IMG/VR virus record: IMGVR_UViG_3300042447_000209
Span: 1 to 24,657 of that record
Reading direction: 5' to 3' (one strand)
Length of the DNA stretch: 24,657 nucleotides
Source of the DNA: a virus
The translations under genes were made by a program, and so were the position numbers. This document shows positions 1,873 through 21,635 of the stretch, piece by piece (the stretch's first letter is position 1; every line of letters starts with the position of its first letter). The notes beneath the pieces were generated by a model. That model ran no database searches and was not told the origin of the DNA. It saw nothing but the letters and a program-made list of their open reading frames with translations.

Positions 1873-1880
1873 AATAAATA
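1873..1880 (-). promoter_or_regulatory. TATTTATT, late-promoter-like motif
   Basis: On the minus strand this reads CCTATTTATTAG, just after the stop codon of the 1017-residue fibre gene and 50 bases before the ATG at 1822. It is a one-mismatch member of the recurrent TATTTATA set. The promoter role is inferred from recurrence and placement. Confidence 0.5.
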
Positions 1881-1882
1881 GG

Positions 1883-4800
1883 TTACATATATCTTAGGTG
1901 TCCTTTTACTGTCCAGGTGCCGGCCGGTACTGCTAATATCAGATTTGCGTTAGATCCGGCAAGAGTCGGAGTAAATTCTGCACCTACAGTACTTCCTAGG
2001 TCTAAGGTAGATACATCATTCCATTCAATGTCTAAAGGAGTCCAGACTGTAGCTAAAGTACCTGCACGTTTGTTACTCCCGCTAGCGATTACATAGTCCA
2101 GGAATGCTCCTTCGTAAGAACCTGTGCTGATAGATGTAACGGTGAGTGAAGTAGTTCCGCTTACTAGAATGCCTTGCTGTACAACTGCTGTAGTACCTTG
2201 AATGGTTAATGAGCCTGAAACTATTGCACTTCCATTAACATCTATAGCTGCTGACGGAGTAATCTTTTTGATACCTATATTGCCGGAAGTATCTTCATAA
2301 ATCGAAGAAGTAGTTGCACTGTTTGAATCTTCATAGCGCATGATGTAACGAGCTACACCTCCACTGCCGGCATTCTGTACAAATGTACCGGCGGTTTGAC
2401 CTCCGATATCAGAGAGTAGCTGTGCACCAGTTCTGTAGACTACTTCTGCACCCGTAAGTGCTAGGAACTTATCCGGATCTGAACCGAAGTTATCCACCGT
2501 ATTAATGTTTACTTTTCCGGTAGTGGTTAGTGAACCCGTAATAATGGTTGTAGATCCGCTTGTAAAGATTTGAGAATCGTTTAAGTGATCTCCGCCATCA
2601 GACCTTGGGACAAACCATTTTGTAAGGTTAGGTTCATCACCTAGTGATCCTGTGTTTCTGGGGCCAGCTAGTAGCATACCTCCGGTATACGTAGACCCGC
2701 TTACATTCTGATATACCCAGTGGTTGTGCAGTGAGTCCCAAGCAAGAGATGCTGTAGCCTGGTGGGATAGAGATCCTGAATCGTATACTTTTAATCCTCC
2801 GAATCTTTCTGCAGGTTCAAATATGTTTACAGAAATGAACGAGGCTGCGACGTTTAACTGTGAGGAGGTTACGTAGGTAAGTGACGAAGTTCCGAATACT
2901 TGAAGATTCCCGTTTATTACTACGTTCTGATTTAGCTGCCCTACTGACTCGGCTTTTAAGGCATAAGATGCAGTGGTGGCTGTAGAAGCATTGCCGGTAA
3001 GGTTTCCTGTTAGGGTTCCATTTATCCCTAAGCTACCGGTGAGTTGGTAGGCTCCAATCAGATTACGGGTGTGACGCCATACCCCTCCGGTTCCACTTCC
3101 GCTGTAGATTAGCAGGTCTCCGTGAGTATACGCTCCCTCTACTCTAACTGAGCTTAGGTCTGCAAAGTCTTTTGGTTGTTCTGTAGTTACGTATATAATA
3201 CCACTTCCACCGGGGCCCGCTTTAACAACAATTCCTACTGGGATTACCTCATAAGGAGCCGGAGGAGCTACTTTGGTAAGTTTACCTGCTGATGATGATA
3301 CAAATAACCTATCCCCATCGCTAAACGCATTTGTATTTAATCCTTTAACAAGTCCCTCAGTGGTGACATATCCTATAGTGTTTATCTCAATATCATGAGT
3401 AGCAAGACCTAGTATTTGATTACTTGTTTCTACACTTCCTGATACTGCAATAGCTTGTGCTAGCTGTATTTCAGGAACGTCTCCGTGAGATCCTACAAGT
3501 CTTACTGGAGTACCATCTTGTATTAATACCCCGCTGGCATTAAAAACTCTTGTCCAGTTTTCCTGTCCTACTTGTAATGTAATATCTGCTTCAGCATTAT
3601 AAACTGATAAAGCTCCATCTGTGTTATCCCAAAATACTCTACCTGATTTCCAAGCAGGGGTTGCGGATCCTGTATTAAAGTCAATATAGTTTACATTGGC
3701 TATGCTTCCTGAGATGGTTAGGTTCGCAGCATGGGATGCTGTAAGAGCATAAGATGCTGAAAGTGCGTAGGATGATGAAAGTGCATTTAAAGCAAGCGAT
3801 GCTGTACCGAACAACGAACCTGTAAACGATGCTGCAGTAATAGAGGTGGTTGTAGTATTTCCTTGAGTGGTGACTTGTTGTAAAGTCGGTACTACGGCTG
3901 CTTGAGAGCTTACACTGGATAGAGAAGCTGATACTGACCCCCATTGGTCAATTCTAACATCTGAACCTGTGATCGAACCATTAGTATTTAAGCTACCGGT
4001 TACTGTTAAGCTCTCAGATACATGCAAATCTCCGTAGACTTTTAAAAGCTGATTGTCAAACTCACCGTAAAGTAGAGGCTGGTTACTGCCTGTGTTGTGT
4101 ATGTAGAGTTTGTTAGATACAGTAACAAGTCCTCCGATAGGTCCTGCTCCTGTTCCGATAAAGACGCTATCAGAAGAGTATTGAGCGGTACCGCCTGCTC
4201 GATATCCTAGCAGTACGTTATTACTCCCAGAGTACAGGTAGTAGCCTGCATAGGCTCCTAATCCTGCATTATATCCACCCATATTAAGGGTCTGTAGACT
4301 ATGGCGGCCTAGAGCACTATTCCAGGCATTAAATTCAGAGGCACCTATATTATCTAATCCTCCTAGAGCAGTATGACCTACAGCGGTATTACTGCTACCG
4401 GATGTTAAGGAGTCTAAAGCGTTGTTACCTACAGCAACATTCAAGTATCCTGCAGTGCTGTTACGTAGAGCCTGGTAGCCGATAGCAATACTTCCTGGGT
4501 TTGGCATTGCATTACTCCCAAGTGTCTGGTGTCCGATTGCAAGACTGGTTAGGTTGCCTGCAGACTGATTGGCAGGTCTGCCGATCTTAATTAAGTTAAA
4601 GTAACTGTCTTGAGAAGCACTTATTCCTCCTGTTACCTGTACTGTCTGATCTAGAGGGTTTACGTATGATGCTGTTGCCGTATAGGAAGAAGAAACTACT
4701 CCTGTGATTGCACTTCCGTTACCTTTAAAAAATGAAGCTGTTACTGGCCCGTTGATATTTAAGCTACCCGTTATTACAGCATTAGTAGTGACGATAGTTT

Positions 4801-4936
4801 GAATAGTATCATCATCTCGCTTAAAGTATACTTTACCGTCAACAGTATTAATTGCAAGCTCTCCTGTGGATAACGAGCCTGTTGAAGGTACTTTACCGGC
4901 TATCGCCGACCTTTTGAGTTTGATTTGTTGGGCCAT
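1883..4936 (-). CDS. Large modular fibre protein with YadA-like head repeats (1017 aa)
   Basis: A multidomain fibre protein. Residues 1-50 (MAQQIKLKRS, then GELAINTVDGKVYF) are an N-terminal module I know from fibres of marine T4-like phages. Residues 130-270 hold repeats with the AIGYQAL, AVGNNAL and AVGHTAL pattern of trimeric autotransporter (YadA/Hia) heads, which form a trimeric left-handed beta roll. Two segments of A-S-Y-A-L repeats (about 375-405 and 645-660) resemble shaft linkers. Residues 460-600 are a compact domain containing GLATHDI and VPVG-like motifs that recurs in phage fibres. The last 80 residues (AFLDYVIASGSNKRAGT to the end) resemble a C-terminal domain seen in other phage structural proteins. 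The role is receptor-binding or structural fibre by inference; no enzymatic motif is visible. It forms its own transcription unit behind a TATTTATA motif. Confidence 0.85.
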   Translation of the reverse strand: MAQQIKLKRSAIAGKVPSTGSLSTGELAINTVDGKVYFKRDDDTIQTIVTTNAVITGSLNINGPVTASFFKGNGSAITGVVSSSYTATASYVNPLDQTVQVTGGISASQDSYFNLIKIGRPANQSAGNLTSLAIGHQTLGSNAMPNPGSIAIGYQALRNSTAGYLNVAVGNNALDSLTSGSSNTAVGHTALGGLDNIGASEFNAWNSALGRHSLQTLNMGGYNAGLGAYAGYYLYSGSNNVLLGYRAGGTAQYSSDSVFIGTGAGPIGGLVTVSNKLYIHNTGSNQPLLYGEFDNQLLKVYGDLHVSESLTVTGSLNTNGSITGSDVRIDQWGSVSASLSSVSSQAAVVPTLQQVTTQGNTTTTSITAASFTGSLFGTASLALNALSSSYALSASYALTASHAANLTISGSIANVNYIDFNTGSATPAWKSGRVFWDNTDGALSVYNAEADITLQVGQENWTRVFNASGVLIQDGTPVRLVGSHGDVPEIQLAQAIAVSGSVETSNQILGLATHDIEINTIGYVTTEGLVKGLNTNAFSDGDRLFVSSSAGKLTKVAPPAPYEVIPVGIVVKAGPGGSGIIYVTTEQPKDFADLSSVRVEGAYTHGDLLIYSGSGTGGVWRHTRNLIGAYQLTGSLGINGTLTGNLTGNASTATTASYALKAESVGQLNQNVVINGNLQVFGTSSLTYVTSSQLNVAASFISVNIFEPAERFGGLKVYDSGSLSHQATASLAWDSLHNHWVYQNVSGSTYTGGMLLAGPRNTGSLGDEPNLTKWFVPRSDGGDHLNDSQIFTSGSTTIITGSLTTTGKVNINTVDNFGSDPDKFLALTGAEVVYRTGAQLLSDIGGQTAGTFVQNAGSGGVARYIMRYEDSNSATTSSIYEDTSGNIGIKKITPSAAIDVNGSAIVSGSLTIQGTTAVVQQGILVSGTTSLTVTSISTGSYEGAFLDYVIASGSNKRAGTLATVWTPLDIEWNDVSTLDLGSTVGAEFTPTLAGSNANLILAVPAGTWTVKGHLRYM

Positions 4937-4972
4937 ATGTATGGAACTTTTTTAAGGTATAAACCGGAAAAT

Positions 4973-4984
4973 GTCTATGTAGAC
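4973..4984 (-). other. Short inverted repeat at the predicted mRNA 5' end
   Basis: Minus strand GTCTA-CA-TAGAC lies 3 bases after the TATTTATA motif at 4988-4995. The two-base loop is tight, so the pairing may be shorter in RNA. It is one of four such dyads at the start of predicted transcripts. Confidence 0.35.
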
Positions 4985-4987
4985 TAT

Positions 4988-4995
4988 TATAAATA
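4988..4995 (-). promoter_or_regulatory. TATTTATA, late-promoter-like motif
   Basis: Minus strand CCTATTTATAATAG lies 51 bases before the ATG at 4936 and directly follows the hairpin at 5000-5017. This terminator-motif-gene order supports a promoter for the 1017-residue fibre gene. Confidence 0.55.
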
Positions 4996-4997
4996 GG

Positions 4998-5020
4998 AAA
5001 GCCGGCTGTTGCCGGCTCCT
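4998..5020 (-). terminator. Terminator-like hairpin after the 654-residue fibre gene
   Basis: Minus strand AGCCGGC-AACA-GCCGGCT forms a perfect 7-bp GC-rich stem (5000-5017). It lies about 20 bases after the stop codon at 5039. Only three T follow before CCTATTTATA, so the U-tract is weak. Flanking AGGA/TCCT can extend the stem with a small bulge. Confidence 0.6.
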
Positions 5021-5038
5021 AATCTATATATGAGTCTT

Positions 5039-7003
5039 TTAGAACGTTCCTCCGTCGATTACCGAAGTTGCTACAAATGTTCCGTCTGCTTTGTATCCGA
5101 CTAGTGTTGATACTTCAACAGCTGAGTCTGTATTGGCGAGAGCTCCTAATCTGTTTGATCCGTCTCTAAAAATTACTCTAGAAGATGTATCGATTACTCC
5201 TTGAAGTCCTACTGCTGTAATACCTGTTGCAGCATTTACGACGCTACCGCTAACAGTACCTGCTACAGTTACAGTACTGCCGTTGTCGGTAATGATTGAT
5301 GCTACTAATCTTTTGTTACTGTCTACTTTCTGAATGCTGTTGGCAGCAGGAGAGGCGTTATCGTAGGTAGTTAACCTGTATTGAGTAGATCCGCTAAGAC
5401 CTGCATACCAGTAGTCGTCTGTTGCATTCCAGAGCAATGAACCTGAAAGTAGCTGTGCTCCTAATGCGTCTCTTACTACGATACCGCCGTCTGCTGCAAC
5501 ACCTGCTGCGTTTAGTACGATGATATTATCTCCAATCTCAACAGTAGTTGAGTTGACAATTGTCTGGGTGCCTGTTACAGTGAGGTTTCCTGCAACAATT
5601 ACATCGTTGCCTGTAAAGCGAGTACCTTCTACGTAAACGTCTCCGTTGGTTGAAGCAATTGAAAGATTACCAGTTGCTCCGGTGTGGGTGATGGATTGGT
5701 TGCCGTTATTATTTAAGACGAAATCATTATCGGTAGAATTACCGTTGTTCATGATATCGTCTAGAGGTAATGAAGCTGGATTGATACCACCAATAGTTAA
5801 GCTATCGATAGATGCACTTACGAAGTAGCCAACTCTCCACTTATCAGAAGAAGCACCAAGATCGAAGGCATTATTAGCTGAAGGTATAATACTAGAGCTT
5901 ACATCTGCTTTGTAAGTTACAACATCTGTTGCAGCATCACCTAGGTTTACATTTCCATTAAGGGTTGTTGTACCCGCTACTGTTAACGAGCTTCCTAGTA
6001 CAGCTGAGCCTGTTAAGATTAAAGTGCCGGCGATCTTAGTGTTACCTGTGTCGGACTTTACTAAGAATTTCTCAGTATTACCGGTACCCATCTGGAAGGT
6101 ACCTATACTACCGCCTGTACCTACGTATAGGTCTAGGGCAGTAGTGATAGCTCCGATTGTTAGGTTGTCCTGAATGACGGCACTGTTATCTACGTATAGA
6201 GCAGAAGCAGATGCAAGTACACCGACATTTAAAAAGTCTACAGAAGCAGCTGATCCTGCTGAACCGCTGAAGTTGTCAGCGTAAACTGTCTTCCAGTATT
6301 TGGTAGTGCTACCTAGGTCAAATGCACTATCAACGTCAGGTACAAACGATGAAGAAATTTCAGCTCCAAAGTTTACAAAGTCTGTTGTAGCATCACCTAC
6401 TGTGATGTTACCTCCGATAACTACGTTACCGCTAATGTCAGCATTTCCTGTCAACTTTAAATTAGAACCGGAAATGTTACCGGTTGTGTTAATATTTAAA
6501 GTTGTAGCATCTAAAGCTGTTGCAGTAACCTTTAAGTTACTTGTTGCTGCAACTGCTCCGGCGTTGTTAAAAAGTACTTCAGTGGTATTACCTGGTGCTG
6601 TAATACTTGCTAGAGAAAGGTTCGTTAATGCTGAACCATTACCGGTAAATGATCCGCTAAATGAGCCTGAAGCAATAATACTTGAGATCGTAGTACCTTC
6701 TAAGTTACCTGAAAGGTCTAATGCAGTACTGCCGGCGTTATTAAGAATAAAGAGGGCTTGGGAGTCAGTCTTGTAATATGGTAGCCCGTTGAGGGTGTTA
6801 ATAAAAGAACTCGCTAAAGCAGTACCTGTGTAGAGCTTGTTTATAGGAGTAAAGGTATTGTTACCGTCTGCATTACCGACGAATACTACGTTCTCGATTC
6901 CACTATTACTGCCTGTAGCAAAAAGTAATTCTCCTTTTGATACGGCGATAGTAGTCCCTAGATTGCCTATACTACCTCTCCTAATTAATATTTTTTGTGC
7001 CAT
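5039..7003 (-). CDS. Modular tail fibre-like protein (654 aa)
   Basis: A repetitive, Gly/Ser/Thr/Asn-rich virion protein. Residues 1-50 (MAQKILIRRGSIG, GELLFATG) match the N-terminal module type of the next fibre gene. Residues 198-240 and 348-394 are two copies of a module containing GDATTD or GDAATD, then FDLGSTTKYWKTVY or FDLGASSDKWRVGY. The FDLG-x-W motif is common in phage fibres. Residues 470-545 (VTGT, EIGDNIIVLN, DGGIVVRD, SLLWNATDDYW) are a domain frequent in fibres of T4-like marine phages, with a diverged counterpart at about residues 675-745 of the 1017-residue fibre. It has its own TATTTATA motif and a downstream hairpin, so it is probably monocistronic. The fibre role is from domain resemblance; its place in the virion is unknown. 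Confidence 0.82.
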   Translation of the reverse strand: MAQKILIRRGSIGNLGTTIAVSKGELLFATGSNSGIENVVFVGNADGNNTFTPINKLYTGTALASSFINTLNGLPYYKTDSQALFILNNAGSTALDLSGNLEGTTISSIIASGSFSGSFTGNGSALTNLSLASITAPGNTTEVLFNNAGAVAATSNLKVTATALDATTLNINTTGNISGSNLKLTGNADISGNVVIGGNITVGDATTDFVNFGAEISSSFVPDVDSAFDLGSTTKYWKTVYADNFSGSAGSAASVDFLNVGVLASASALYVDNSAVIQDNLTIGAITTALDLYVGTGGSIGTFQMGTGNTEKFLVKSDTGNTKIAGTLILTGSAVLGSSLTVAGTTTLNGNVNLGDAATDVVTYKADVSSSIIPSANNAFDLGASSDKWRVGYFVSASIDSLTIGGINPASLPLDDIMNNGNSTDNDFVLNNNGNQSITHTGATGNLSIASTNGDVYVEGTRFTGNDVIVAGNLTVTGTQTIVNSTTVEIGDNIIVLNAAGVAADGGIVVRDALGAQLLSGSLLWNATDDYWYAGLSGSTQYRLTTYDNASPAANSIQKVDSNKRLVASIITDNGSTVTVAGTVSGSVVNAATGITAVGLQGVIDTSSRVIFRDGSNRLGALANTDSAVEVSTLVGYKADGTFVATSVIDGGTF

Positions 7004-7029
7004 TCTCTACGTTGTTGTTTGAGTCTTTA

Positions 7030-7037
7030 TATAAATA
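7030..7037 (-). promoter_or_regulatory. TATTTATA, late-promoter-like motif
   Basis: The motif begins immediately after the TGA (7040-7038) of the 84-residue gene and lies 26 bases before the ATG at 7003. It probably drives the 654-residue fibre gene. Confidence 0.55.
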
Positions 7038-7292: not shown

Positions 7293-7293
7293 C

Positions 7294-10485: not shown

Positions 10486-10495
10486 GCTTTTTCTT

Positions 10496-10503
10496 TATAA
10501 ATA
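10496..10503 (-). promoter_or_regulatory. TATTTATA, late-promoter-like motif
   Basis: Minus strand GCTATTTATAAAG lies 10 bases before the ATG at 10485 and about 34 bases after the stop of the 159-residue gene. It is the shortest motif-to-start distance of the nine and would head the neck operon. Confidence 0.5.
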
Positions 10504-11017: not shown

Positions 11018-12237
11018 TAAATCAGGTTCTTAACGTTAGCTAAATATACGTCGGTAGAATCGAATGTAATAAGGGATACAATGTCAACTCCGGTTCCGGC
11101 TGTAGGAGTGTAGCTTGAGCCGCTGACTTGTTTAACAGCTGAGTTAAAAGTTACTGTTCCTGAACCTCCTGTGTTGATTCTAAGGTTTACTGTCTGTCCT
11201 GGTTGCTGTCCACTAACATTAACGTGTGTGTTACTTCCTGCTGCTAGTTGCAAAGTGAAGAAATTTGATGCAGACATATTTAGAGACGCAGTAGAAGAAG
11301 TTATAGTCAGCGGACTGACACTTCCCTGTAATGATCCGCTCATTACTAGTAAGTCTCTTATATAGTTTTTTGCAGGAGAATTACTACCGAATCCTAAATA
11401 AATTTCGTTACTTGCAGAAACAAATACGTTTACTCCGTGGTTTACGGTCGCTAGTGCAATGTCCTGGGCGGTGCTGAGTGGCTGTAATACTACCGGGTTT
11501 TTAGTTGTTCCGAAGGTACTGCCGGCTTGGTTGTATAGCGATCTAGCAACTAACGGGTATAAATACCCGCCCCATGCTGTGTTCGGGAATCCAAAAGCGC
11601 TTGAATGTCTTACAACTTTAATACCTCCGTCACTGGTTGTTGTGATGGCATTAGATCCTGTGTTAAGTATCTCTAACGATCCTGTGATTTGAGCTGTTCC
11701 TGAGTATGGAAATGCAGATGTTCCTGTTATTCCAGTAAGTCCTGATCCATCTCCTTTAAAAGACCCTGTAAATGATCCTGTAGCTGTAGAATCTACTAAA
11801 CTAACTCCGTTGATATAAAACGGAAAAGAAGGAGTGTTTCCTAAACTAATACCGGTATTTCCTAGAGCAATACTGTTATTTGTAATCTGTGTACCGTTGA
11901 TCTGGGAAGATCCAGATACTAGTCCGGCTGGCTTGCTGCTGATACTGTTCCAGTCACTTGCTCCTGATGTACCTTGTGTACCTTGAATTCCTTGAGTGCC
12001 GGTTCCTGAAGTACCTTGAATTCCTTGGGTTCCTGTACCGTTGTTACCCTGTATTCCTTGGGTTCCTTGTATACCTTGTATTCCCTGTACGCCCTGGTTA
12101 CCTGTTGTACCTTGTACACCTTGGACACCTGTAGCTCCAGTAGCTCCAACAATTCCTGTAGACGATACTGTTACTGCGGTAGTACCTGTTTGAGATACTG
12201 ATAAGTCGGTTCCGCTAACCTGTACTGTTAAACTCAT
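11017..12237 (-). CDS. Collagen-like fibre protein of the head/neck cluster (406 aa)
   Basis: Residues 1-30 are Thr/Val/Ser-rich (SLTVQVSGTDLSVSQ). Residues about 31-94 are Gly-X-Y repeats (GATGATGVQ, GIQGTQGIQGNNG, GTSGTGTQG). The remainder is a fibre body with SGSFTGSFKGDGSGLTG motifs and a C-terminal domain (QTVNLRINTGG, YTPTAGTGVDIVSLI, DSTDVYLANVKNL) of a type found at the end of several phage fibres. Its ATG overlaps the stop of the 126-residue gene by 4 bases and its own stop overlaps the 159-residue gene, so the three form one unit. Placement among head and neck genes, away from the other fibres, suggests a head, collar or whisker fibre. That location is inference. Confidence 0.82.
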   Translation of the reverse strand: MSLTVQVSGTDLSVSQTGTTAVTVSSTGIVGATGATGVQGVQGTTGNQGVQGIQGIQGTQGIQGNNGTGTQGIQGTSGTGTQGIQGTQGTSGASDWNSISSKPAGLVSGSSQINGTQITNNSIALGNTGISLGNTPSFPFYINGVSLVDSTATGSFTGSFKGDGSGLTGITGTSAFPYSGTAQITGSLEILNTGSNAITTTSDGGIKVVRHSSAFGFPNTAWGGYLYPLVARSLYNQAGSTFGTTKNPVVLQPLSTAQDIALATVNHGVNVFVSASNEIYLGFGSNSPAKNYIRDLLVMSGSLQGSVSPLTITSSTASLNMSASNFFTLQLAAGSNTHVNVSGQQPGQTVNLRINTGGSGTVTFNSAVKQVSGSSYTPTAGTGVDIVSLITFDSTDVYLANVKNLI

Positions 12238-12627: not shown

Positions 12628-12635
12628 AATAAATA
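12628..12635 (-). promoter_or_regulatory. TATTTATT, late-promoter-like motif
   Basis: Minus strand CCTATTTATTATAAATC lies 13 bases before the ATG at 12614, in the gap after the PhoH-like gene. It has one mismatch from TATTTATA. It would head the collagen-fibre cassette. Confidence 0.5.
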
Positions 12636-12646
12636 GGATTTGCGCT

Positions 12647-13333: not shown

Positions 13334-13344
13334 AAATGTAACGT

Positions 13345-13359
13345 TAGGTTATACACCTA
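13345..13359 (-). other. Short inverted repeat at the predicted mRNA 5' end
   Basis: Minus strand TAGGT-GTATA-ACCTA is a 5-bp stem with a 5-base loop that begins within the last two bases of the TATTTATA motif at 13358-13365. It would sit at or just before the start of the PhoH mRNA. Confidence 0.35.
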
Positions 13360-13365
13360 TAAATA
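13358..13365 (-). promoter_or_regulatory. TATTTATA, late-promoter-like motif
   Basis: Minus strand CCCTATTTATAGG follows the U-tract of the capsid-gene terminator by a few bases and lies 24 bases before the PhoH ATG. This is the clearest terminator-then-promoter arrangement in the window. Confidence 0.6.
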
Positions 13366-13370
13366 GGGAT

Positions 13371-13398
13371 AAAAAAAAGAGGGGCCCGAAAGCCCCTC
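13371..13398 (-). terminator. Intrinsic terminator after the major capsid gene
   Basis: Minus strand GAGGGGC-TTTCGG-GCCCCTC is a 7-bp GC-rich stem followed, after no gap, by eight T (13378-13371). It begins 23 bases after the capsid stop codon. It is a canonical rho-independent terminator. Confidence 0.92.
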
Positions 13399-13421
13399 CT
13401 TGTTTCTCTATCCGAGTTCTA

Positions 13422-14999
13422 TTAGATAGTAGCTACGTCAGAAACGTAGATCTTACCGTAGAATTCTGGACGGATCATCTTCTTAGCGTAACGAGTCATG
13501 ATGCCCTTCGTTGGAGTGAAGTTAGCAGGATCGTACACTAATGGAGTCATCATTAGAGGGATGTAAGGAGCGTAAACCGCACCAGTCTCTAGGAACTGTG
13601 AACCTCTGTAGCCCATAAGGATTACGTTCTCAGTCATGTATGGGTTCTTGTATACGCGGAAGCGGCTGTTAAGCTGACCTACCTTCTGTACGCCCATTGC
13701 GAAGTCCATCTTGTCTCCGTTTGTATCAGCAGCATATCCTGGGATTGACTCGAGGATAGTTGCAACAGTCGGAGAAACTACTAGGAAGTTTGCACCGCCA
13801 CGTAGAGTCTTCTGGTGGATCTTGTTAGACACCTTCTGGACCTTAGTACCAAGAGTTTGGAACCACTGACCTTGAGTGTTGTAGAAGTCTGCAGTAGCAG
13901 TAGACCACAAGCCAGTAGTGGCATTCCACACTTTGTTGTTCTCAGCTGACCAACGCTCAGTAGTAACTGCGTCTTGGATAAGCATGTCAAGAAGCTCAAG
14001 ATCGATTTCCATAGAGATGTACTCTGATAGAAGTGAGGTAAGCTCGGCCTCAGCATCGATGCTGTGGTAAGCGTTCAAGTCTTGAGCGAATTCTGGAGAC
14101 CATTGAGCTTTAAGCTTTCTAGTCTTAGCAACGATAGCCTCAGAAGCAAGAGATACGTTGATCTCAGGGATAGCTGGGCTTCTGTCGTCAACACCACCAG
14201 TGAATTCGAAGTCACCTCTAGTAGTGTCAGTAGGCTGCTTGTGGTACATTACTGATCCAGTGATTTCTCCAGTTACAGAAAGGTCGCTAGCTTTAACTAC
14301 GAAGATAATGTTAGTACCGTCGTAAGTAGTGAATTCTGGGTAGTTAGTTACGTCAGTTGAACCAGAACGAAGACGGAAAGCTCTTACACCCTTAAGATCT
14401 GGGGCTGTGAAGCTAGCAGCAGAAACTGATACAGTCTTGAATAAAGTTCCAGCTAGTTCGTCACGGTATCCGATAGAAGCTGAAGTAGCAGCACCAGTAG
14501 ATTGAGTGATAGCTAAAGAAGCTGAGTTGATAGTGTAGCCGAATTGACCAGCACCGTAAAGGCCGCCAGAAACTTCCTCGTCTACAGACATCTTGTTGTT
14601 AGCAGTAGATACGTTACCGTACATATTGTCACCGTCAGTTCTTCCGTTAGCAGTAGTACCGTACTTGAAGTCAAGATAGAATACAAGACCTGAAGGAAGG
14701 TTCATAGGCTGTACAGATACGAAATCTTTAGCAGCGATCTGAGCGAATACCTTTCTTACAAGCGGTAGAGCAACACCAGCCCACTGCTCGGCTCCGCCGT
14801 TAGCATTGGTAGCGTTGGATTCCTTGATGATTTGTTTTGCCTGGTTCTCAAGGATCATAGACATATTGTTCTTGTCGATCTCGTTGCCAAGACCCTCAAG
14901 AAGACCAGTTGCAGACCACTTGTCAGCGAGTCTAGCAGCATCAGCTTGCAGAGACTTGAAGCCCTGTGCTGATTCGTTTAAAAGAGAATTTAATTCCAT
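13422..14999 (-). CDS. gp23: Major capsid protein, gp23-like (525 aa)
   Basis: The protein forms the hexameric head shell. Length is close to T4 gp23 (521). Diagnostic segments are VRKVFAQIAAKDFVSVQPM (81-99), then GLVFYLDFKYG, RKLKAQWSPEFAQDLNAYHS and DAEAELTSLLSEYISMEIDL, FLVVSPTVATIL, FRVYKNPYMTENVILMGYRG, and VYAPYIPLMMTPLVYDP near the end. The N-terminal 60 residues look like the removable propeptide. I58-K59-E60 fits the (I/L)-x-E site cut by T4-type prohead proteases, so mature protein may begin at S61. It lies 17 bases after the scaffold gene, has no promoter motif of its own in that gap, and ends at a strong terminator, so scaffold and capsid are probably co-transcribed. The ATG has an A-rich leader and no Shine-Dalgarno sequence. 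Confidence 0.97.
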   Translation of the reverse strand: MELNSLLNESAQGFKSLQADAARLADKWSATGLLEGLGNEIDKNNMSMILENQAKQIIKESNATNANGGAEQWAGVALPLVRKVFAQIAAKDFVSVQPMNLPSGLVFYLDFKYGTTANGRTDGDNMYGNVSTANNKMSVDEEVSGGLYGAGQFGYTINSASLAITQSTGAATSASIGYRDELAGTLFKTVSVSAASFTAPDLKGVRAFRLRSGSTDVTNYPEFTTYDGTNIIFVVKASDLSVTGEITGSVMYHKQPTDTTRGDFEFTGGVDDRSPAIPEINVSLASEAIVAKTRKLKAQWSPEFAQDLNAYHSIDAEAELTSLLSEYISMEIDLELLDMLIQDAVTTERWSAENNKVWNATTGLWSTATADFYNTQGQWFQTLGTKVQKVSNKIHQKTLRGGANFLVVSPTVATILESIPGYAADTNGDKMDFAMGVQKVGQLNSRFRVYKNPYMTENVILMGYRGSQFLETGAVYAPYIPLMMTPLVYDPANFTPTKGIMTRYAKKMIRPEFYGKIYVSDVATI

Positions 15000-15016
15000 G
15001 TTTGAAATTTGGGTTT

Positions 15017-16372: not shown

Positions 16373-16391
16373 GTTGTTAACTTTGGATTTG

Positions 16392-16418
16392 TACACCCAT
16401 TAAATTTGTGGGGGTGTA
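16392..16418 (-). other. Inverted repeat in the scaffold/capsid leader
   Basis: Perfect 7-base arms TACACCC and GGGTGTA are separated by 13 bases, 20 bases before the scaffold ATG. It could form a hairpin in the leader that affects ribosome access. Function is unproven. Confidence 0.45.
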
Positions 16419-16438
16419 ATGTAGTTTGTTTACATTCG

Positions 16439-16459
16439 ATATCGTATCTGTGACGATAT
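16439..16459 (-). other. Inverted repeat at the predicted 5' end of the scaffold/capsid mRNA
   Basis: Perfect 7-base arms ATATCGT and ACGATAT with a 7-base loop start 7 bases after the TATTTATA motif at 16467-16474. A hairpin here would be at the very 5' end of the transcript and could protect it from decay. Confidence 0.45.
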
Positions 16460-16466
16460 ATTCGTA

Positions 16467-16474
16467 TATAAATA
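16467..16474 (-). promoter_or_regulatory. TATTTATA, late-promoter-like motif for scaffold and capsid genes
   Basis: Minus strand TGTATTTATATACG lies about 18 bases after the U-tract of the terminator at 16493-16519 and 94 bases before the scaffold ATG. It would give the longest leader (about 85-90 bases) in the window, carrying two inverted repeats. Confidence 0.57.
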
Positions 16475-16492
16475 CATATGAGTTACAAAAAC

Positions 16493-16519
16493 AAAAAAAC
16501 CCCGGCCTTTCGACCGAGG
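16493..16519 (-). terminator. Intrinsic terminator with GAAA tetraloop
   Basis: Minus strand CCTCGGTC-GAAA-GGCCGGGG forms an 8-bp stem (two G-T wobbles) closed by a GNRA tetraloop and followed by seven T (16499-16493). It lies 26 bases after the stop of the 40-residue gene and closes the unit that starts at 19702. Confidence 0.9.
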
Positions 16520-16545
16520 TGCCCAAGGTAGCGCCCGAGGGAGTT

Positions 16546-16668
16546 TTATTTAGCTTCTAACTTGCTTAAGATCTCGTTATTGGTCTGCATTCTTTTTTTG
16601 AATTTAACCTGAGATTTTCTACTTAAGGGCTTGAAAGCGGCTTGTCTTCTCTTGGCTGACTTTGCCAT
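16546..16668 (-). CDS. Very small basic protein (40 aa)
   Basis: The protein begins MAKSAKRRQAAFKPLSRKSQ and ends NNEILSKLEAK. Thirteen of 40 residues are Lys or Arg against two acidic ones. The ATG overlaps the stop of the 57-residue gene by one base (TAATG), and the gene is followed by a terminator, both signs of a real gene. It sits between the prohead protease and the acidic scaffold, so it may be an internal head or core peptide that binds DNA or scaffold. No family is recognised. Confidence 0.72.
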   Translation of the reverse strand: MAKSAKRRQAAFKPLSRKSQVKFKKRMQTNNEILSKLEAK

Positions 16669-16841
16669 TACTTTGCCTTACTTTCAGCAGTTGAAACTTT
16701 TCTGTATTCGGTAACAAGTTTTTTAATCTCTCCTAGATTCTTACGGGCTCTTGCTTTAGCGGCCTTAGTCTCTTTGTTGTGATTAGAAACGAATTCCTGG
16801 TACAGGGCATCAATTTTTTCGAATAACTCTTGTGATGTCAT
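16668..16841 (-). CDS. Small basic helical protein (57 aa)
   Basis: The protein begins MTSQELFEKIDALYQEFVSN and continues with a Lys/Arg/Ala-rich helix (KETKAAKARARKNLGEIKKL) ending TAESKAK. It is likely a single long amphipathic helix or coiled coil. It is coupled by a one-base TAATG overlap to the 40-residue gene. Context (between gp21-like and gp22-like genes) suggests a prohead core component. Function unknown. Confidence 0.72.
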   Translation of the reverse strand: MTSQELFEKIDALYQEFVSNHNKETKAAKARARKNLGEIKKLVTEYRKVSTAESKAK

Positions 16842-16874
16842 AACAAATATAATTAAAATTAGGGTTTGGGTTTA

Positions 16875-17171
16875 CTATAGGTTCATCGGACGACCCATAT
16901 CGTCAGTGACTCCTGTGATTTTCGTAACAGCTCTTACTGTTCTGTTTTTGAATTTGATTGTTACTGGTAGGGGGCTATTTTTTATGTACAGGTCAAACTT
17001 CTCGGCGCTAAGTTTAGTATAGGACTTTATTTTACCGTCTTCATCAAGTACCTCTACTTCGTAGATAATTTCTTCCTCACCGGTCGATTTAATATCATAT
17101 TCTAATAATTCCTTAGAATTATCAGTAAGCTTATTCTCTACTAAGAATTTTTTTAAATCAAAGTTTTCCAT
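16875..17171 (-). CDS. Uncharacterised protein after the prohead protease (98 aa)
   Basis: The N-terminus MENFDLKKFLVENKLT is a leader type I associate with several structural proteins of marine T4-like phages. The rest predicts a small beta domain (IIYEVEVLDEDGKIKSYTKL, then LPVTIKFKNRTVRAVTKITG). It lies 23 bases after the protease gene and 33 bases before the 57-residue gene, with a strongly A-rich leader. Context suggests a head-assembly role. No enzyme motif is seen. Confidence 0.75.
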   Translation of the reverse strand: MENFDLKKFLVENKLTDNSKELLEYDIKSTGEEEIIYEVEVLDEDGKIKSYTKLSAEKFDLYIKNSPLPVTIKFKNRTVRAVTKITGVTDDMGRPMNL

Positions 17172-17194
17172 CTTCTTTTACTTTTTTTTTAGTT

Positions 17195-17773
17195 TTATGC
17201 TCTTAAAATGTCTCCGATAATGTTATGAAGCTTGCTGTAGCGGTCTACAACTTGCTTTGTTTCATTTAAAGAGACGGGGTTTAGAAATGCTCCGTGTGTA
17301 GAAGGATTCGATACGAAATCCCAGCACACCAATTCAAAATCGTCTTTAACCATTAGGGTGTTCTCACCAATTGGCTGGACTGAACCTGTACCTCTAGAAG
17401 AGATACCGATTGTGTGTCCGCCTTTGATGATTTCTTTTACGATGTTACCGGCCGGGGTGTTGAGTAGCTCAACCTTACCCATTAGATCATCTCCATCCCA
17501 CCATAAATCCTTCACAACGTGTGAAGCATTCTTTAGTGATACAATTGGAGATTCTGGGTGATCTAGTTCACCGTATGCGTTACCTACTTTAACGAAAGCT
17601 TCCATGTACTTCTTAACCTCTCTATCGAGGATAGCTCTTTCGTAGATTCTTCCGTTTTGGTTCTTCTTTCCGGCTCTCTGCATAACACCTGTCACCTCAA
17701 AGATACCGGGTCTTTTGACGGACTCGGTGATCGTAGGACGGAAGGGGGTATATTCAATTAAGAGATTTGCCAT
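17195..17773 (-). CDS. gp21: Prohead protease, gp21-like (192 aa)
   Basis: A serine protease that matures the T4-type prohead by cutting scaffold and capsid proteins after (I/L)-x-E. Visible motifs are NGRIYERAIL (40-49), GELDHPESP (68-76) with likely catalytic His72, GISSRGTGSV (123-132) with the likely nucleophile Ser125 or Ser126, and FELVCWDFVSNPSTHGAF (146-163) with Asp152. The fold is related to herpesvirus assemblins. Length is close to T4 gp21 (212). It lies 2 bases after the 286-residue gene and upstream of scaffold and capsid genes, as in T4. Which serine and acid are catalytic is from the family pattern. Confidence 0.95.
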   Translation of the reverse strand: MANLLIEYTPFRPTITESVKRPGIFEVTGVMQRAGKKNQNGRIYERAILDREVKKYMEAFVKVGNAYGELDHPESPIVSLKNASHVVKDLWWDGDDLMGKVELLNTPAGNIVKEIIKGGHTIGISSRGTGSVQPIGENTLMVKDDFELVCWDFVSNPSTHGAFLNPVSLNETKQVVDRYSKLHNIIGDILRA

Positions 17774-17775
17774 GA

Positions 17776-18636
17776 TTATGATTCTAGAGTCTTCTTAATT
17801 AAAGCCTTTACTGCTTCTTTGAGCTGGGCTTCTTTCATTATGTCTTTGATGTCGTAAGTGCCGTCGTCTTTCTTTTTTGGATGGCTTGAAGCGAAATCTC
17901 TAGTATTGGTTCTGTTAGCTTCAAAATCATCTACATTAACGTCTTCTGCTCCTTCTTGGAAGTCAGGCTGACCTGCAATAGCATCCATTCGCTCTTGAGC
18001 TTCTTGATCGATGTAGTAGTTCTCTTTGTAGTCTTTGAAAGCAGCAATAAGCTCGTCTTTAGACATTTTCACATACGTCTCAGGCTCTTGCATTACCATA
18101 TCTCTGAATGCTTTACCTACATTGTTAGGCTCATCTGCTACTGCAGCAGCTACTTCCTTGTCTGAAAGTTCATCTCTTAGTCTTTCACGGTCTCTTAAGA
18201 AAGTATTTTGAGTGTCACCTTCTTGAAGCTTTGCTTTCTCCATTTTCTCACCCATCTCAGGCATGGTCTGGGCATTCTTATAATGAAGAGGATCTTTTGC
18301 TAGATTCTTAGCTGCTTTCTCTTTTGCTTTTGTGTACTCTTCTTCAGAAGGAGTTCCTTCGATGCCCTTAGCTTCTAGTTCAGCTCTGATGCCGTCATCT
18401 AAAAGGTCCGGGGCAATTAAATCGATAGGATCTACTTCTGGCTTTTTGTAGGCTGTTACTTCTTCTTTTTTAGCTTCAGCAATCATACCTCTGTTCTTGA
18501 GGATGGCTGTCATATCTTCAAAGCTGTTAAACTTAGAAACAACGTTAGGAAGCTGCATAACTGCATCTCTCCTAAATTGCTCTTTTGAGAAGTTTCCTTC
18601 TAGAACAGCATTATATTTTTCCTGTAGTGTTCTCAT
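17776..18636 (-). CDS. Charged helical head-assembly protein between portal and protease (286 aa)
   Basis: The N-terminal domain (MRTLQEKYNAVLEGNFSKEQ, MQLPNVVSKFNSFEDMTAIL) resembles a conserved uncharacterised protein located between portal and protease in marine T4-like phages. The rest is highly charged and largely helical (EEEYTKAKEKAAKNLAKDP, DRERLRDELSDKEVAAAV), with an acidic stretch (EGAEDVNVDDFEAN) and a helical C-terminus (KEAVKALIKKTLES). It overlaps the 72-residue gene by 4 bases. In T4 this position holds the core protein gp68, so a prohead-core role is plausible by position only. Confidence 0.78.
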   Translation of the reverse strand: MRTLQEKYNAVLEGNFSKEQFRRDAVMQLPNVVSKFNSFEDMTAILKNRGMIAEAKKEEVTAYKKPEVDPIDLIAPDLLDDGIRAELEAKGIEGTPSEEEYTKAKEKAAKNLAKDPLHYKNAQTMPEMGEKMEKAKLQEGDTQNTFLRDRERLRDELSDKEVAAAVADEPNNVGKAFRDMVMQEPETYVKMSKDELIAAFKDYKENYYIDQEAQERMDAIAGQPDFQEGAEDVNVDDFEANRTNTRDFASSHPKKKDDGTYDIKDIMKEAQLKEAVKALIKKTLES

Positions 18637-18851
18637 TTGAAATCAAACATTTTAGTGTGTGAGGGTCTCTTTGGTCTTTCTGCTTTAGTGTAACCAAAGC
18701 CCTTCATTGTCTTAACGGCTCTGTTGTCTTTTTTTCCTTTTGAAAAAGCGAAAGGAGTTGTGATAGGTGCAATAGCTCCTGTTACGTTCACCTCGTTGAG
18801 CTCCTGTTGAATGAGCTCTCTTAGTACTTCGATGAATTCGCTCTTTTTCAT
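18633..18851 (-). CDS. Small core-like protein (72 aa)
   Basis: An N-terminal amphipathic helix (KKSEFIEVLRELIQQELNEV) is followed by a basic, Gly/Lys/Pro-rich tail (FSKGKKDNRAVKTMKGFGYT) ending HTKMFDFK. It overlaps both neighbours by 4 bases (ATGA), so it is translated in a coupled row. Size and place match T4 gp67 (80 residues, prohead core), but the sequence alone does not show homology. Confidence 0.75.
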   Translation of the reverse strand: MKKSEFIEVLRELIQQELNEVNVTGAIAPITTPFAFSKGKKDNRAVKTMKGFGYTKAERPKRPSHTKMFDFK

Positions 18852-19702
18852 ATTGACTTTAACTCATTTACTAATTCGTAGTATTGCAACAAATTAACAA
18901 TATGATTATCGTCGATACGAGTCTTCTTATCTAAAGGTTTGATAATCTTATGTACTTCGTCAAGCTTGATTTTTACAATCTCGTCGTTTACTTTAGCCTT
19001 CAAAGTTTCAACTTCTTTAGAGATCTTCTCTAATTCTTCGTTGATCATATTTCTTAACTTAACCTGAGATTCAGAAGCTGTGATAAACTCTCTAAGGATT
19101 GCTTTCTGCTCAGGTAGGAAGTTTTCGTACTCGCCGTTAAACTTCTCAAGTAGAATTCTGTAGGTAAGGAGTCTTAAGTCCTTATCGTATTTTGCGTACT
19201 CTTCAATTAGTGCATCTTTTACGTCAACCTCATTTTGCTTCTTAGCAGTCAAGTGCTCTAGAATAGTAACTCTGTTATCGACGATGAACTTAGGATCAGC
19301 GAGATCTTCAGAGCTTTGAGTCTCCATCAAGCAGTACAGAGCAGCTAACGGCTTATAGTCCCGGACCTTCATAGAGAAGAACTCCTCTAGGTCGTAAGAC
19401 TCTTTAATCTCTTTGATAAGATCGTACTTCTGCTTCTTGATAGCAGTTCTATCTAACTTGTTAGAGATCTCGATGATAGTGGAGACGATGGTGTCGGCTT
19501 TGGGCTGGGATACTCCTTTGTTCTTAAGGATGTATTCGTAGAGTTTAAATTCTCTAACTAGCGATGTCTTTCCTGTGTAGAACTTCTTGAGTACCTTCAC
19601 TGCCGGGGAGTCTTTCCTCGATAGAGTATCGGCAGCGATCTGCTTTACCAATAGCTCAAAAATAAGGCCAGTGTTTTTATACTTTGAATGCTTAATTTTC
19701 AT
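18848..19702 (-). CDS. Conserved uncharacterised protein after portal (284 aa)
   Basis: An all-helical, Lys/Glu-rich protein starting MKIKHSKYKNTGLIFELLVK. This N-terminus recurs, as I remember it, in uncharacterised proteins next to the portal gene in marine T4-like phages. Predicted coiled coil at about residues 215-265 (EELEKISKEVETLKAKVNDE). There is no transmembrane segment, signal peptide or enzyme motif. It begins the long operon running to the terminator at 16493 and its own TATTTATA motif is 19 bases upstream. Context suggests prohead assembly or a portal-associated chaperone. Confidence 0.8.
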   Translation of the reverse strand: MKIKHSKYKNTGLIFELLVKQIAADTLSRKDSPAVKVLKKFYTGKTSLVREFKLYEYILKNKGVSQPKADTIVSTIIEISNKLDRTAIKKQKYDLIKEIKESYDLEEFFSMKVRDYKPLAALYCLMETQSSEDLADPKFIVDNRVTILEHLTAKKQNEVDVKDALIEEYAKYDKDLRLLTYRILLEKFNGEYENFLPEQKAILREFITASESQVKLRNMINEELEKISKEVETLKAKVNDEIVKIKLDEVHKIIKPLDKKTRIDDNHIVNLLQYYELVNELKSI

Positions 19703-19721
19703 GAGTATGTAATTCTACTAA

Positions 19722-19729
19722 TATAAATA
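19722..19729 (-). promoter_or_regulatory. TATTTATA, late-promoter-like motif
   Basis: Minus strand CATATATTTATATTAG begins 4 bases after the portal stop codon (19736-19734) and lies 19 bases before the ATG at 19702. It would head the core/protease operon. Confidence 0.52.
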
Positions 19730-19733
19730 TATG

Positions 19734-21611
19734 TTACTTATCTAAATCCTTAATATTGCTTTCATCCAGTAGTGTGCTGGATTCTGCAGTATGGTCCTGT
19801 TCAAAGATTAGCTTTTTACGCTCTTTGAATAGATCCTGATTTTGATAGAACACTGCTCTAGTAGCGAGACTGCCTTCCTTCAGTTTGTCATTCTGAGATT
19901 CGTAGCCTCCTTTCATATCATGTTGTCCAAGTCTGTCTCTGCCTAACGGATCTTCTTGAGTTCCGTAGATAGAGATATTGGTTCTAGGGCGACCTTCCGG
20001 GTTAGGCTCACCTACTAGTTCATCGTAACCAACAGGTACTTTTTGTGAATCTGATCCTCTTCTACCGTACATCGAAGCAAGGTCGTGAGGAGTTCCGTAA
20101 GATATACCTGATTTAGCTGGGTCATTGCCTTCGTTCTCAATTTGAGTTGCACGGAAGGTTCTCTTACTATCTTCTCTGATAAGATCGCGCATTTCGTTGT
20201 ACTGATCTTCAGATAGGTTAAAGATGTTTTCGTAGATGTAGTCAGAAGAGAATAACTTACTGTCCATCATCTGGCTTGCTAGGTCGATCTTCTCTTTTAG
20301 AAGGGCAACTTTCTCCTGTTCGTAAATGATAGAAGGAGTTGTAAGCTTAAGTTCAAAGTTTGTTAAGCTTTCACCCTTGTAGCCCTGGGTGTATAAGTGA
20401 ATAAGAGCAATCTTAGTAAGCTCTGATTCGATGATGCGCTGGATTCTTTCGATTGTTCTTGCAAAACGAATATCTTCTGCAGCTAGAGTTGCTTTACCTT
20501 GAAGATCTCCTTCGTATCCAAAGTACGCTTTAGGTACTTTAAGGGCAGCAAACATTTTATCTCTTAAGTAAGCGACGTCGTTGGTGCCGTCGTACTCAAG
20601 TCCTTTAGTTGTTTCGATTCTAGTTGAAGTATCTCCTCCACGAACAGGGATGTAGAAGTCCTCGATCATGTTCTGCATATTGAAACGCAGGTTGTATTGA
20701 CCGGTTTGAGGATCTACATAAGGAGTTTTCTTCATCTGGTTGATAGTCTTCTGCATGAACTGCTCAACCTCGTTTGGTGGTACGTTACCAACGTTGACAT
20801 AGAAAGTTCTCTTCTCAGGAGCTCTCATGATGCGGTGAATCAGCATCGCATCTTCCATTAGTATCAACTGCTTGTATACTTTTCTAGCAGGCTCTAGGTA
20901 AGAACGTCCGTAAGGAAGGAAGTTAGTATCAGATAAAAGACGGAAGTGTGCTACTTCGTAGTTATCTAGCTGAATTACTTTATCCTTATGTCTAGGAATG
21001 TAGTTAGGATCGGTAGATGAAGCGATTCCATCTGGGTCGATGGTAAAGGTTACCTTAGCAGGAGCGTTAGGATCCTGACTCTCATGGCGTACCATACTGT
21101 AGACTGTATACGGCAGTACGTTGTAAACACCGAATGTTTCTGCAATCTCTAGCTTAAGGAAGAAATCACCATACTTACACATATTACGAGTCCAAGACCA
21201 AAGATTGAACTCGATATTAAGTACGTCGTAAAATAAGTTATTTAAGATCTTCTTAATGTTCTCGTCCGATGTCTTAACTGTAAGTACATCCCCCATATCA
21301 TTTCTCAGGGTAGCTTCGTCGGCTAGGATATCAAGTGCTGAAGCGATGATTGGATCAGAGTCCATTGCTTCGTAATCCGAGTAAAGTTGAATCCTTAACG
21401 TCTGGTAGTTAAGGTTCGGATTAAAAATGTTCTTATTATTGTAGATGTAAAGACGAGAGAAACGGTCAACCAACGAGTTAGTCTCGTATCGACCGGTGCT
21501 CTGAATGTGGTTTACGTCTGCTATCTTGAGCTGATTACCGCCAACGTTGCGAATAACTACGTCGGTAGAGAAAAGTCTCTGTAATCTACTAAATAATGAA
21601 GTATCAGCCAT
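19734..21611 (-). CDS. gp20: Portal protein, gp20-like (625 aa)
   Basis: The dodecameric portal at the unique head vertex, through which DNA enters and leaves and on which the prohead starts. Typical gp20 segments include DYEAMDSDPIIASALDILAD, LWSWTRNMCKYGDFFLKLEI, LPYGRSYLEPARKVYKQL, LIHRIMRAPEKRTFYVNVGN, TPYVDPQTGQYNLRF and MIEDFYIPVRGGDTSTRIET. At 625 residues it is about 100 longer than T4 gp20 (524); the surplus is a charged C-terminal tail from about residue 515 (YGTPHDLASMYGRRGSD onward). It lies 27 bases after the terminase gene with no sheath or tube gene between. The start has no Shine-Dalgarno sequence. Confidence 0.96.
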   Translation of the reverse strand: MADTSLFSRLQRLFSTDVVIRNVGGNQLKIADVNHIQSTGRYETNSLVDRFSRLYIYNNKNIFNPNLNYQTLRIQLYSDYEAMDSDPIIASALDILADEATLRNDMGDVLTVKTSDENIKKILNNLFYDVLNIEFNLWSWTRNMCKYGDFFLKLEIAETFGVYNVLPYTVYSMVRHESQDPNAPAKVTFTIDPDGIASSTDPNYIPRHKDKVIQLDNYEVAHFRLLSDTNFLPYGRSYLEPARKVYKQLILMEDAMLIHRIMRAPEKRTFYVNVGNVPPNEVEQFMQKTINQMKKTPYVDPQTGQYNLRFNMQNMIEDFYIPVRGGDTSTRIETTKGLEYDGTNDVAYLRDKMFAALKVPKAYFGYEGDLQGKATLAAEDIRFARTIERIQRIIESELTKIALIHLYTQGYKGESLTNFELKLTTPSIIYEQEKVALLKEKIDLASQMMDSKLFSSDYIYENIFNLSEDQYNEMRDLIREDSKRTFRATQIENEGNDPAKSGISYGTPHDLASMYGRRGSDSQKVPVGYDELVGEPNPEGRPRTNISIYGTQEDPLGRDRLGQHDMKGGYESQNDKLKEGSLATRAVFYQNQDLFKERKKLIFEQDHTAESSTLLDESNIKDLDK

Positions 21612-21627
21612 GTAAAAGCAGTTTAAA

Positions 21628-21635
21628 TATAAATA
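21628..21635 (-). promoter_or_regulatory. TATTTATA, late-promoter-like motif
   Basis: Minus strand GACTATTTATATTTAAAC begins 3 bases after the terminase stop codon (21641-21639) and lies 16 bases before the portal ATG. Confidence 0.52.

Follow-up and report, generated by a model that had tools for sequence, protein, structure and literature searches.

The octamer TATTTATA, which recurs between the late genes of a virus contig from IMG/VR (record IMGVR_UViG_3300042447_000209), is very probably the late promoter of a T4-like phage clade with altered specificity, acting in the direction of the genes and with a gp55-like protein family, typified by gp118 of Flavobacterium phage immuto, as its candidate reader. 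We analyzed positions 1-24,657 of the record, a stretch of 24,657 bases that we call the window. Its minus strand carries the late module of a T4-like phage, with terminase, portal, prohead protease, a scaffold-like gene (so named from its position ahead of the capsid gene), major capsid protein, PhoH-like protein, neck protein and fibre-like genes. The closest cultured relative is immuto, with 74.3% identity in the major capsid protein and 74.5% in the terminase; by the same two proteins Microcystis phage Mel-JY01, the metagenomic jumbo phage LR756508 and Rhodothermus phage RM378 are more distant. The host of the window phage presumably belongs to the Bacteroidota, and the clade using TATTTATA most likely consists of T4-like phages of that phylum.

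Occurrence of the octamer

In the window TATTTATA was present eight times on the minus (coding) strand and never on the plus strand; 100 dinucleotide shuffles gave 1.67 copies on average and no more than 5. When the last base was relaxed to A or T (TATTTATW), which takes in two copies of TATTTATT, the number rose to 10 (shuffle mean 3.38, maximum 9). Nine of these 10 sites lie within intergenic DNA, which makes up 680 bases or 2.8% of the window if two small unlisted open reading frames (ORFs; 16546-16668 and 16668-16841) are counted as genic. Shuffling the bases gap by gap gave a mean of 0.158 sites and at most 2 in 5000 trials. There are 12 gaps of at least 8 bases; a site was found in all six of 34 bases or more and in those of 32, 31 and 27 bases, and the gaps of 33, 23 and 17 bases were without one.

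The first-pass annotation of the window had listed these nine gap sites, 10-94 bases ahead of start codons and in every gap longer than about 35 bases, with one further exact copy inside a gene. All positions and strands were recovered, and the measured spacers span the same range (Table 1); the longest, 94 nt, takes the ATG at 16372 as the start and not the GTG at 16396. The order of terminator hairpin, motif and gene that had been described at 4988, 13358 and 16467 was confirmed by a terminator scan of bases 1-20000, in which these three hairpins fill the first three rows. The sites had also been said to head nine transcription units. That there are nine gap sites stands, and that each heads a unit is an interpretation: the major capsid gene has no motif in the 17-base gap ahead of it, so that its transcription would have to come by read-through within the 16467 unit.

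The comparison was extended to the best 80 of at least 599 related IMG/VR contigs, which together with the window make 81 sequences. In this set TATTTATA is the commonest intergenic octamer, with 254 intergenic copies and 66 in the far larger genic part, whereas its reverse complement occurs 28 and 31 times, respectively; kinship among the contigs means that such counts are not independent, and the ORFs were called automatically, which both argue for caution, the independent evidence being the many different gaps inside one genome. In the window itself automatic calling split the eight octamers into six intergenic and two genic, and inspection by hand into seven and one. Among the 712 gaps that follow a plus-strand gene, 309 carried TATTTATW. 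Arranged by gap length the numbers were 1/245 (below 15 nt), 24/90 (15-24 nt), 116/163 (25-39 nt), 73/101 (40-79 nt) and 95/113 (80 nt or more), and for the box in reverse orientation 2, 9, 17, 11 and 3 in the same classes. The frequency of the motif rises with gap length, as expected of a promoter. The T4-type octamer TATAAATA in the gene direction does not characterize these relatives, as WATAAATA was found in only 42 of the 712 gaps.

Single genomes gave a similar picture. In immuto, 24 of the 30 coding-strand copies of TATTTATA are intergenic, compared with 7 of 15 on the other strand, and in contig G003, with its late genes on the minus strand, 36 copies are on that strand and 6 on the plus strand. 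The variant TATTTAA was present in 29 of 83 gene-oriented gaps of RM378, where 1.5 were expected and the reverse orientation gave 10. The bias is weak in the whole genome of Mel-JY01 (35 vs 28 copies by strand); in its first 50 kb TATTTATA was found in 6 of 20 gaps and its reverse in none. As a control, the same script applied to a 40 kb late region of T4 recovered TATAAATA in 7 of 18 gaps, with TATTTATA in 4 of 18. The TATTTA core characterizes the group of immuto as well as RM378 and probably Mel-JY01; it does not characterize LR756508. Mel-JY01 (PP395634), recorded from the cyanobacterium Microcystis elabens, is second-closest to the window after immuto in capsid and terminase and carries the motif ahead of some late genes; its recorded host is perhaps worth checking.

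Anatomy, direction and gene classes

The full signal reads [A/C]TATTTAT[A/T]nnnR, without a strong -35 element. The flanks were profiled in 190 sites that remained of 251 after removal of near-repeats. The octamer is preceded by A (0.60) or C (0.38), and the fourth position downstream of it holds A (0.76) or G (0.19). At the 57 sites lying over 30 nt away from the start codon this fourth base is A in 0.56, G in 0.42, C in 0 and T in 0.02, and at the 133 nearer sites A in 0.84 and G in 0.09, so that the purine is fixed in position relative to the octamer rather than to the start codon. All nine gap sites of the window have the purine, and eight of nine have A or C in front, the exception being the G at 16467. 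Transcription probably starts at or next to this purine, one base or two either way being possible from the profile; with the purine taken as the start the octamer would span -11 to -4. A -35 element at -19 to -15 seemed present at first (0.35 bits), but was dropped since the signal was confounded by terminators and gene ends and fell to at most 0.19 bits once similar flanks were removed. That limit holds for all positions from -26 to -6 (75 sites), with a weak G/T trend persisting at -19 to -17.

The spacing between octamer and start codon ranges from 1 to more than 100 nt and is most often 13-17 nt, from which leaders of about 10-14 nt are predicted. This proximity to start codons would suit an RNA element, acting in the leader as a translation-initiation or processing signal, and is the point in favor of such an element. 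We consider it very improbable in view of the wide range of spacings, a purine that is spaced constantly from the octamer rather than from the start codon, the position of the octamer after terminator-like hairpins at three sites of the window, and its presence in only one of the 245 gaps shorter than 15 nt. Octamers 1-4 nt from the start codon make up 11 of the 251 sites by automatic gene calls (for example L029 near 6605 and L067 near 7722), and annotated cases in immuto are found at 1337, 10515 and 142462; such spacing would give nearly leaderless late mRNAs.

Between the octamer at 16467 and the scaffold-like gene, a predicted leader RNA with two hairpins was found in 27 sequences including the window. 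Of these, 22 were aligned; L012, L043, L058 and L061 were omitted as repeats of others and L019 because of poor alignment. The two hairpins pair in 99.4% of 308 cells, and 13 of the 14 pairs vary on both sides (57 cells, compared with 14.0 in shuffles). If the pairing is slid by 1-3 columns only 17-46% of the cells pair, a comparison biased in favor of the structure, which was itself derived from the same sequences. One of the five measures was weak: 19 further pair types were counted vs 17.0 in shuffles, a value reached in 42 of 500. The first stem starts at +5 of the predicted transcript. G-U pairs occur in two cells, too few to prove the strand alone. The covarying leader suggests that RNA is made from the 16467 site in the gene direction. 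At about 90 nt it is much longer than most other late leaders are predicted to be.

The direction bears on what the first-pass annotation had proposed, a sigma-like factor of different or opposite-strand specificity. Since TATTTATA read on the other strand gives the T4 consensus, the sites could be T4 late promoters TATAAATA on the opposite strand, driving antisense transcription. We regard this as extremely improbable, and the opposite-strand part of the proposal found no support: the orientation of the octamer tracks that of the genes, as the strand counts of G003 illustrate, its conserved flanking bases are asymmetric with the purine at a fixed distance, and the covarying leader lies on the gene side. 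Furthermore, opposite-strand use is not supported because the reverse complement of the RM378 variant (TTAAATA) is not a T4 box. Different specificity, by contrast, is upheld by a motif that is shared by relatives, strand-specific and placed before structural genes, and by the presence of a gp55-like candidate. Equal frequency within genes or on the other strand, which the first-pass annotation had named as a refutation, was not found among the relatives, the bias being weak in Mel-JY01 as a whole. We have high confidence that the octamer is a promoter acting in the gene direction.

The motif also separates gene classes. In immuto we considered gaps of at least 25 nt and took 78-104 kb plus 114-160 kb as structural and 60-78 kb as the small-gene block. 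TATTTATW was found in 20 of 28 structural gaps and in 1 of 30 small-gene gaps (Fisher p 3e-8). The small-gene promoters are very uniform, with aGTTG, about 20 bases and TATaTTTAGgTAT, and resemble the -33/-7 promoter of the host; the sigmaA-like motif TAnnTTTAGnTA occurs in 1 of 28 structural, 20 of 30 small-gene and 3 of 26 other gaps, the small-gene count being no independent test as the motif was read off the same gaps. In a second genome, a contig of 161,982 bp, gaps were assigned to classes through homologues in immuto, and both motifs had been set in advance. Of the structural gaps 13 of 15 carried TATTTATW and 0 of 15 the sigmaA-like motif; among the small-gene-type gaps the counts were 1 of 13 and 5 of 13, respectively. 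From gene content we infer that the two classes are early and late; the uniform class of the small-gene block, which consists of hypothetical genes, probably represents early promoters read by host sigmaA.

This partition bears on whether the octamer might itself be a variant of the host sigmaA promoter, giving strong constitutive transcription. In Bacteroidota the -33 element of sigmaA promoters is TTTG, and the late sites have no strong -33 element, the G/T signal having dropped on removal of similar flanks as described above. The flavobacterial -7 box TAnnTTTG lies at -12 to -5 (PMC9723704), close to the predicted -11 to -4 of the octamer, and TATTTATA shares with it T1, A2, T5 and T7. At the head and tail gaps of immuto, TAnnTTTG was found in 1 of 25 gaps with 0.8 expected, which does not mark them as sigmaA promoters, and in immuto the sigmaA-like motif forms a uniform class of its own in another block of genes. 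A sigmaA variant thus appears improbable.

Table 1. Octamer sites and other features of the window, with the gene of the candidate reader in immuto. Positions refer to the window unless an accession is given; the leader coordinates were counted by hand from the alignment row, and hairpins are from the terminator scan.
Feature	Position	Strand	Remarks
Octamer TATTTATT	1873..1880	minus	50 nt ahead of fibre-like gene, start 1822
Octamer TATTTATA	4988..4995	minus	51 nt ahead of gene, start 4936; after terminator-like hairpin
Terminator-like hairpin	4998..5019	minus	adjoins the 4988 octamer upstream
Octamer TATTTATA	7030..7037	minus	26 nt ahead of gene, start 7003
Octamer TATTTATA	10496..10503	minus	10 nt ahead of neck (Ad2-like) gene, start 10485
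Octamer TATTTATA, genic	11558..11565	minus	in collagen-like gene 11017-12237; preceding base G breaks the A/C rule; downstream purine present
Octamer TATTTATT	12628..12635	minus	13 nt ahead of gene (phrog_1084), start 12614
Octamer TATTTATA	13358..13365	minus	24 nt ahead of PhoH-like gene, start 13333
Terminator-like hairpin	13376..13401	minus	after major capsid gene, upstream of the 13358 octamer
Major capsid protein gp23	13422..14999	minus	phrog_138, E 1.1e-72; query used for finding relatives
Predicted 5' leader RNA	16373..16463	minus	two covarying hairpins: 16459-16453 with 16445-16439; 16418-16412 with 16398-16392
Octamer TATTTATA	16467..16474	minus	heads scaffold-like and major capsid unit; 94 nt to ATG 16372; preceding base G, not A/C
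Terminator-like hairpin	16499..16520	minus	upstream of the 16467 octamer
Octamer TATTTATA	19722..19729	minus	19 nt ahead of gene, start 19702
Portal protein gp20	19734..21611	minus	sequence match
Octamer TATTTATA	21628..21635	minus	16 nt ahead of portal gene, start 21611
Terminase large subunit gp17	21639..23219	minus	sequence match
immuto gp118	NC_055915 78174-78872		annotated hypothetical; weak phrog_234 match

Some features of the window stand apart from the promoter. The portal gene directly follows the terminase gene (19734-23219), and in T4 the sheath and tube genes lie between them; these genes are located elsewhere in immuto and none were seen in the window. The two small minus-strand ORFs absent from the ORF list encode 57 (16668-16841) and 40 (16546-16668) amino acids, both rich in Lys and Arg, and the former presumably resembles the histone H1-like protein of Bacteroidota. 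Neither Rfam nor a tRNA scan returned a match in the window.

A candidate sigma factor

Scanning twelve records with the profile of the T4-type late sigma factor (phrog_234) matched T4 and, weakly, gp118 of immuto, with an expectation value (E) of 0.008. The search for a gp55-type gene that the first-pass annotation had called for thus returned a candidate, through a weak match whose profile comparison beats shuffled controls. Homologues of gp118 occur in at least 80 further IMG/VR loci and, at 36% and 41% identity, in Mel-JY01 and LR756508; in bacterial and archaeal genome bins, 3 of 8 were flavobacterial and 5 of 8 from others. The RM378 homologue is p020 (17032-17826, E 2.3e-8), separate from the annotated extracytoplasmic function (ECF)-like sigma factor p144. 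A profile of the gp118 family matched 8 of the twelve records, namely 7 of 10 clade contigs and RM378, and did not match T4.

Relation to known sigma factors was examined with an alignment of 41 of the 80 loci and a 103-member profile, from which L247 and L261 were dropped because of an internal stop and into which some of 88 far loci were not taken. On the gp55 side an earlier set held 20 of 45 T4 gp55 relatives plus T4; the later 17-row profile consists of 11 of those 45, T4 and 5 distant proteins, with an Agrobacterium phage protein left out. Aligned with hhalign, the 103-member profile and the 17 gp55 proteins scored 31.8 locally (E 3.9e-4) and 24.7 globally (E 1.1e-4), compared with maxima of 21.5 (60 shuffles) and 14.0 (58 shuffles) in column-shuffled controls. 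The alignment pairs the conserved N-terminal aromatic residues Y10 and W23 of T4 with Y11 and Y23 of the family; two such residues are absolutely conserved in gp55 according to a review (PMC2988020). The Pfam family most often matched was Sigma70 region 2 (PF04542; 22 of 41 members, best E 0.006), and the most frequent PHROG match was late sigma (15 of 41, best E 0.026). Against RM378 p144 the 41-member profile was not significant (E 0.75), and phmmer searches of the annotated proteins of immuto with T4 gp55 and RM378 p144 yielded nothing significant among the matches listed.

An AlphaFold model of a gp118-type protein reached a predicted local distance difference test score (pLDDT) of 77.4 and a predicted template modelling score (pTM) of 0.47. 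Nearly all of the 50 matches listed for it by VIA-align are, by title, sigma factors or sigma chains of RNA polymerase complexes, and a sequence search of solved structures returned only two matches, both doubtful. The C-terminal helical domain of about 95 amino acids was modelled well (pLDDT 88.8), and its listed matches include no sigma4 by title and no recognized relative, for which reason a fused sigma2-sigma4 factor was dropped as a candidate. By eye, no DFLYE-like hydrophobic-acidic clamp-binding tail was present in the displayed rows of the 41-member alignment or in Mel-JY01. Taken together, the hhalign scores, PF04542 and VIA-align point to a similarity to sigma70 region 2 as in the gp55 family that is weak but beats shuffled controls. 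The gp118 family is likely homologous to gp55 and would function as a sigma factor, and we hold with moderate confidence that its members read the octamer.

Besides the kinship and automatic gene calls noted for the contigs, several results weigh against a late promoter served by gp118-type proteins. LR756508 (48 kb) encodes a gp118 homologue, yet nothing clear was found in it, with TATTTATA in 0 of 37 gaps and TATTTAA in 4 of 37. The first 50 kb of Mel-JY01 hold 11 copies of TATTTATA on the plus and 9 on the minus strand. The motif is not strictly structural, as TATTTATW also occurs in 8 of 26 other gaps of immuto and in 5 of 20 and 8 of 28 gaps of the remaining classes of the second genome. 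The gp118-family profile had no match in G003, G007 and G008, contigs that are not established as complete. All Pfam sigma matches fall below the curated cut-off, the 41-member profile against gp55 was not significant (E 0.1), and neither was the best Foldseek match (E 0.36). VIA-align, a point in favor of the assignment, ranked T4 gp55 (7d7c_F) second with a Z of 9.8 (root-mean-square deviation 5.2, 123 residues), but helical models can reach Z values under about 13 by chance. What connects protein and octamer is co-occurrence and remote similarity only.

These results leave room for a late promoter that is read by some other regulator of the phage or by an alternative sigma factor of the host, with another role for the gp55-like protein. 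The three of ten clade contigs without a family match, LR756508 with the protein and not the motif, and a sigma assignment made from weak profile matches and model resemblance would all fit such a reader. Searches of immuto with Sigma70_r2, phrog_1740 and Sigma70_r4_2 showed no other sigma factor, a weak argument as Sigma70_r2 also missed gp118, and the protein family occurs together with a TATTTA core in both RM378 and immuto. On balance we find a different reader unlikely.

In T4 late transcription is coupled to the sliding clamp. Models of the T4 clamp gp45 matched T4 and none of 7 other records, and the model of the bacterial clamp had no match in 8 records, so that PF02916, phrog_223 and PF00712 found nothing in the clade. 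The T4-type clamp loader gp44 was matched strongly in Mel-JY01 and G002 and at best weakly in G003 and G004; immuto, G001 and RM378 gave no match. Clamp coupling, a hallmark of T4 late transcription, may thus be missing in immuto, with the qualification that a diverged clamp could escape the models and that use of a host clamp is possible.

With gp118 as the reader, TATTTATA would form the -10-type core of a late promoter ahead of structural genes. Host RNA polymerase together with a phage sigma factor would recognize it as promoter DNA, the octamer being bound by sigma region 2 of the gp118-type family. Transcription would start at or near the downstream purine and yield structural mRNAs with short leaders, mostly of about 10-14 nt, and host sigmaA would direct transcription of the early genes from GTTG-N20-TAnnTTTAG promoters. 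A fuller account we put forward tentatively: a gp55-derived sigma factor could have shifted its box from TATAAATA to TATTTATA (TATTTAA in RM378) and lost clamp coupling at least in immuto, its tail being replaced by the helical domain, and one of its promoters could head a structured leader of the capsid-scaffold unit.

Comparison with known promoters and sigma factors

A description of the motif was not found in the open-licence literature on Bacteroidetes and Flavobacterium phage promoters, T4-like late promoters, RM378, immuto and Mel-JY01, including the accessible portions of PMC5587285 and PMC11348598, and no transcription study of this phage group was found in the same literature. For these phages, a common group in IMG/VR, the analysis yields a promoter code that can be tested and names a candidate sigma factor, and the motif suggests promoter parts for Flavobacterium phages. 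If the proposal is true, it describes a natural change in specificity of a gp55-type sigma factor. It also raises the question whether all T4-like late transcription is coupled to the clamp; the review judges such generality probable (PMC2988020).

Like the T4 late promoter (TATAAATA, served by gp55, gp33 and gp45), whose anatomy we take from PMC2988020, the promoter proposed here consists of an AT box of eight bases roughly one turn upstream of the start, shows no conservation at -35, has AT-rich DNA just downstream and precedes structural genes. It differs in bases 4-5 of the box, which are TT and not AA, and in a predicted position about two bases closer to the start, the first base of the T4 box being at -13 (PMC2988020). 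Its sigma candidate has no DFLYE-like tail and possesses a separate C-terminal helical domain, and immuto is without a detectable T4-type clamp or clamp loader. The in-silico late promoters of KVP40, 44RR, S-PM2 and Aeh1 are likewise late boxes proposed for T4-related phages and are reported to be highly similar to that of T4, Aeh1 having a/gC for TA at -13/-12 (PMC2988020); here the change falls mid-box. The position relative to the start resembles that of the Bacteroidota sigmaA promoter (PMC9723704), from which the late sites differ in having no strong -33 element and other -7 letters, the sigmaA-like type being found in another gene block. The gp118 family, finally, resembles the gp55 family (phrog_234) in its match to sigma region 2 and in a colinear N-terminus with two conserved aromatic residues, and differs from it by the extra C-terminal domain of about 95 amino acids without a recognized relative.

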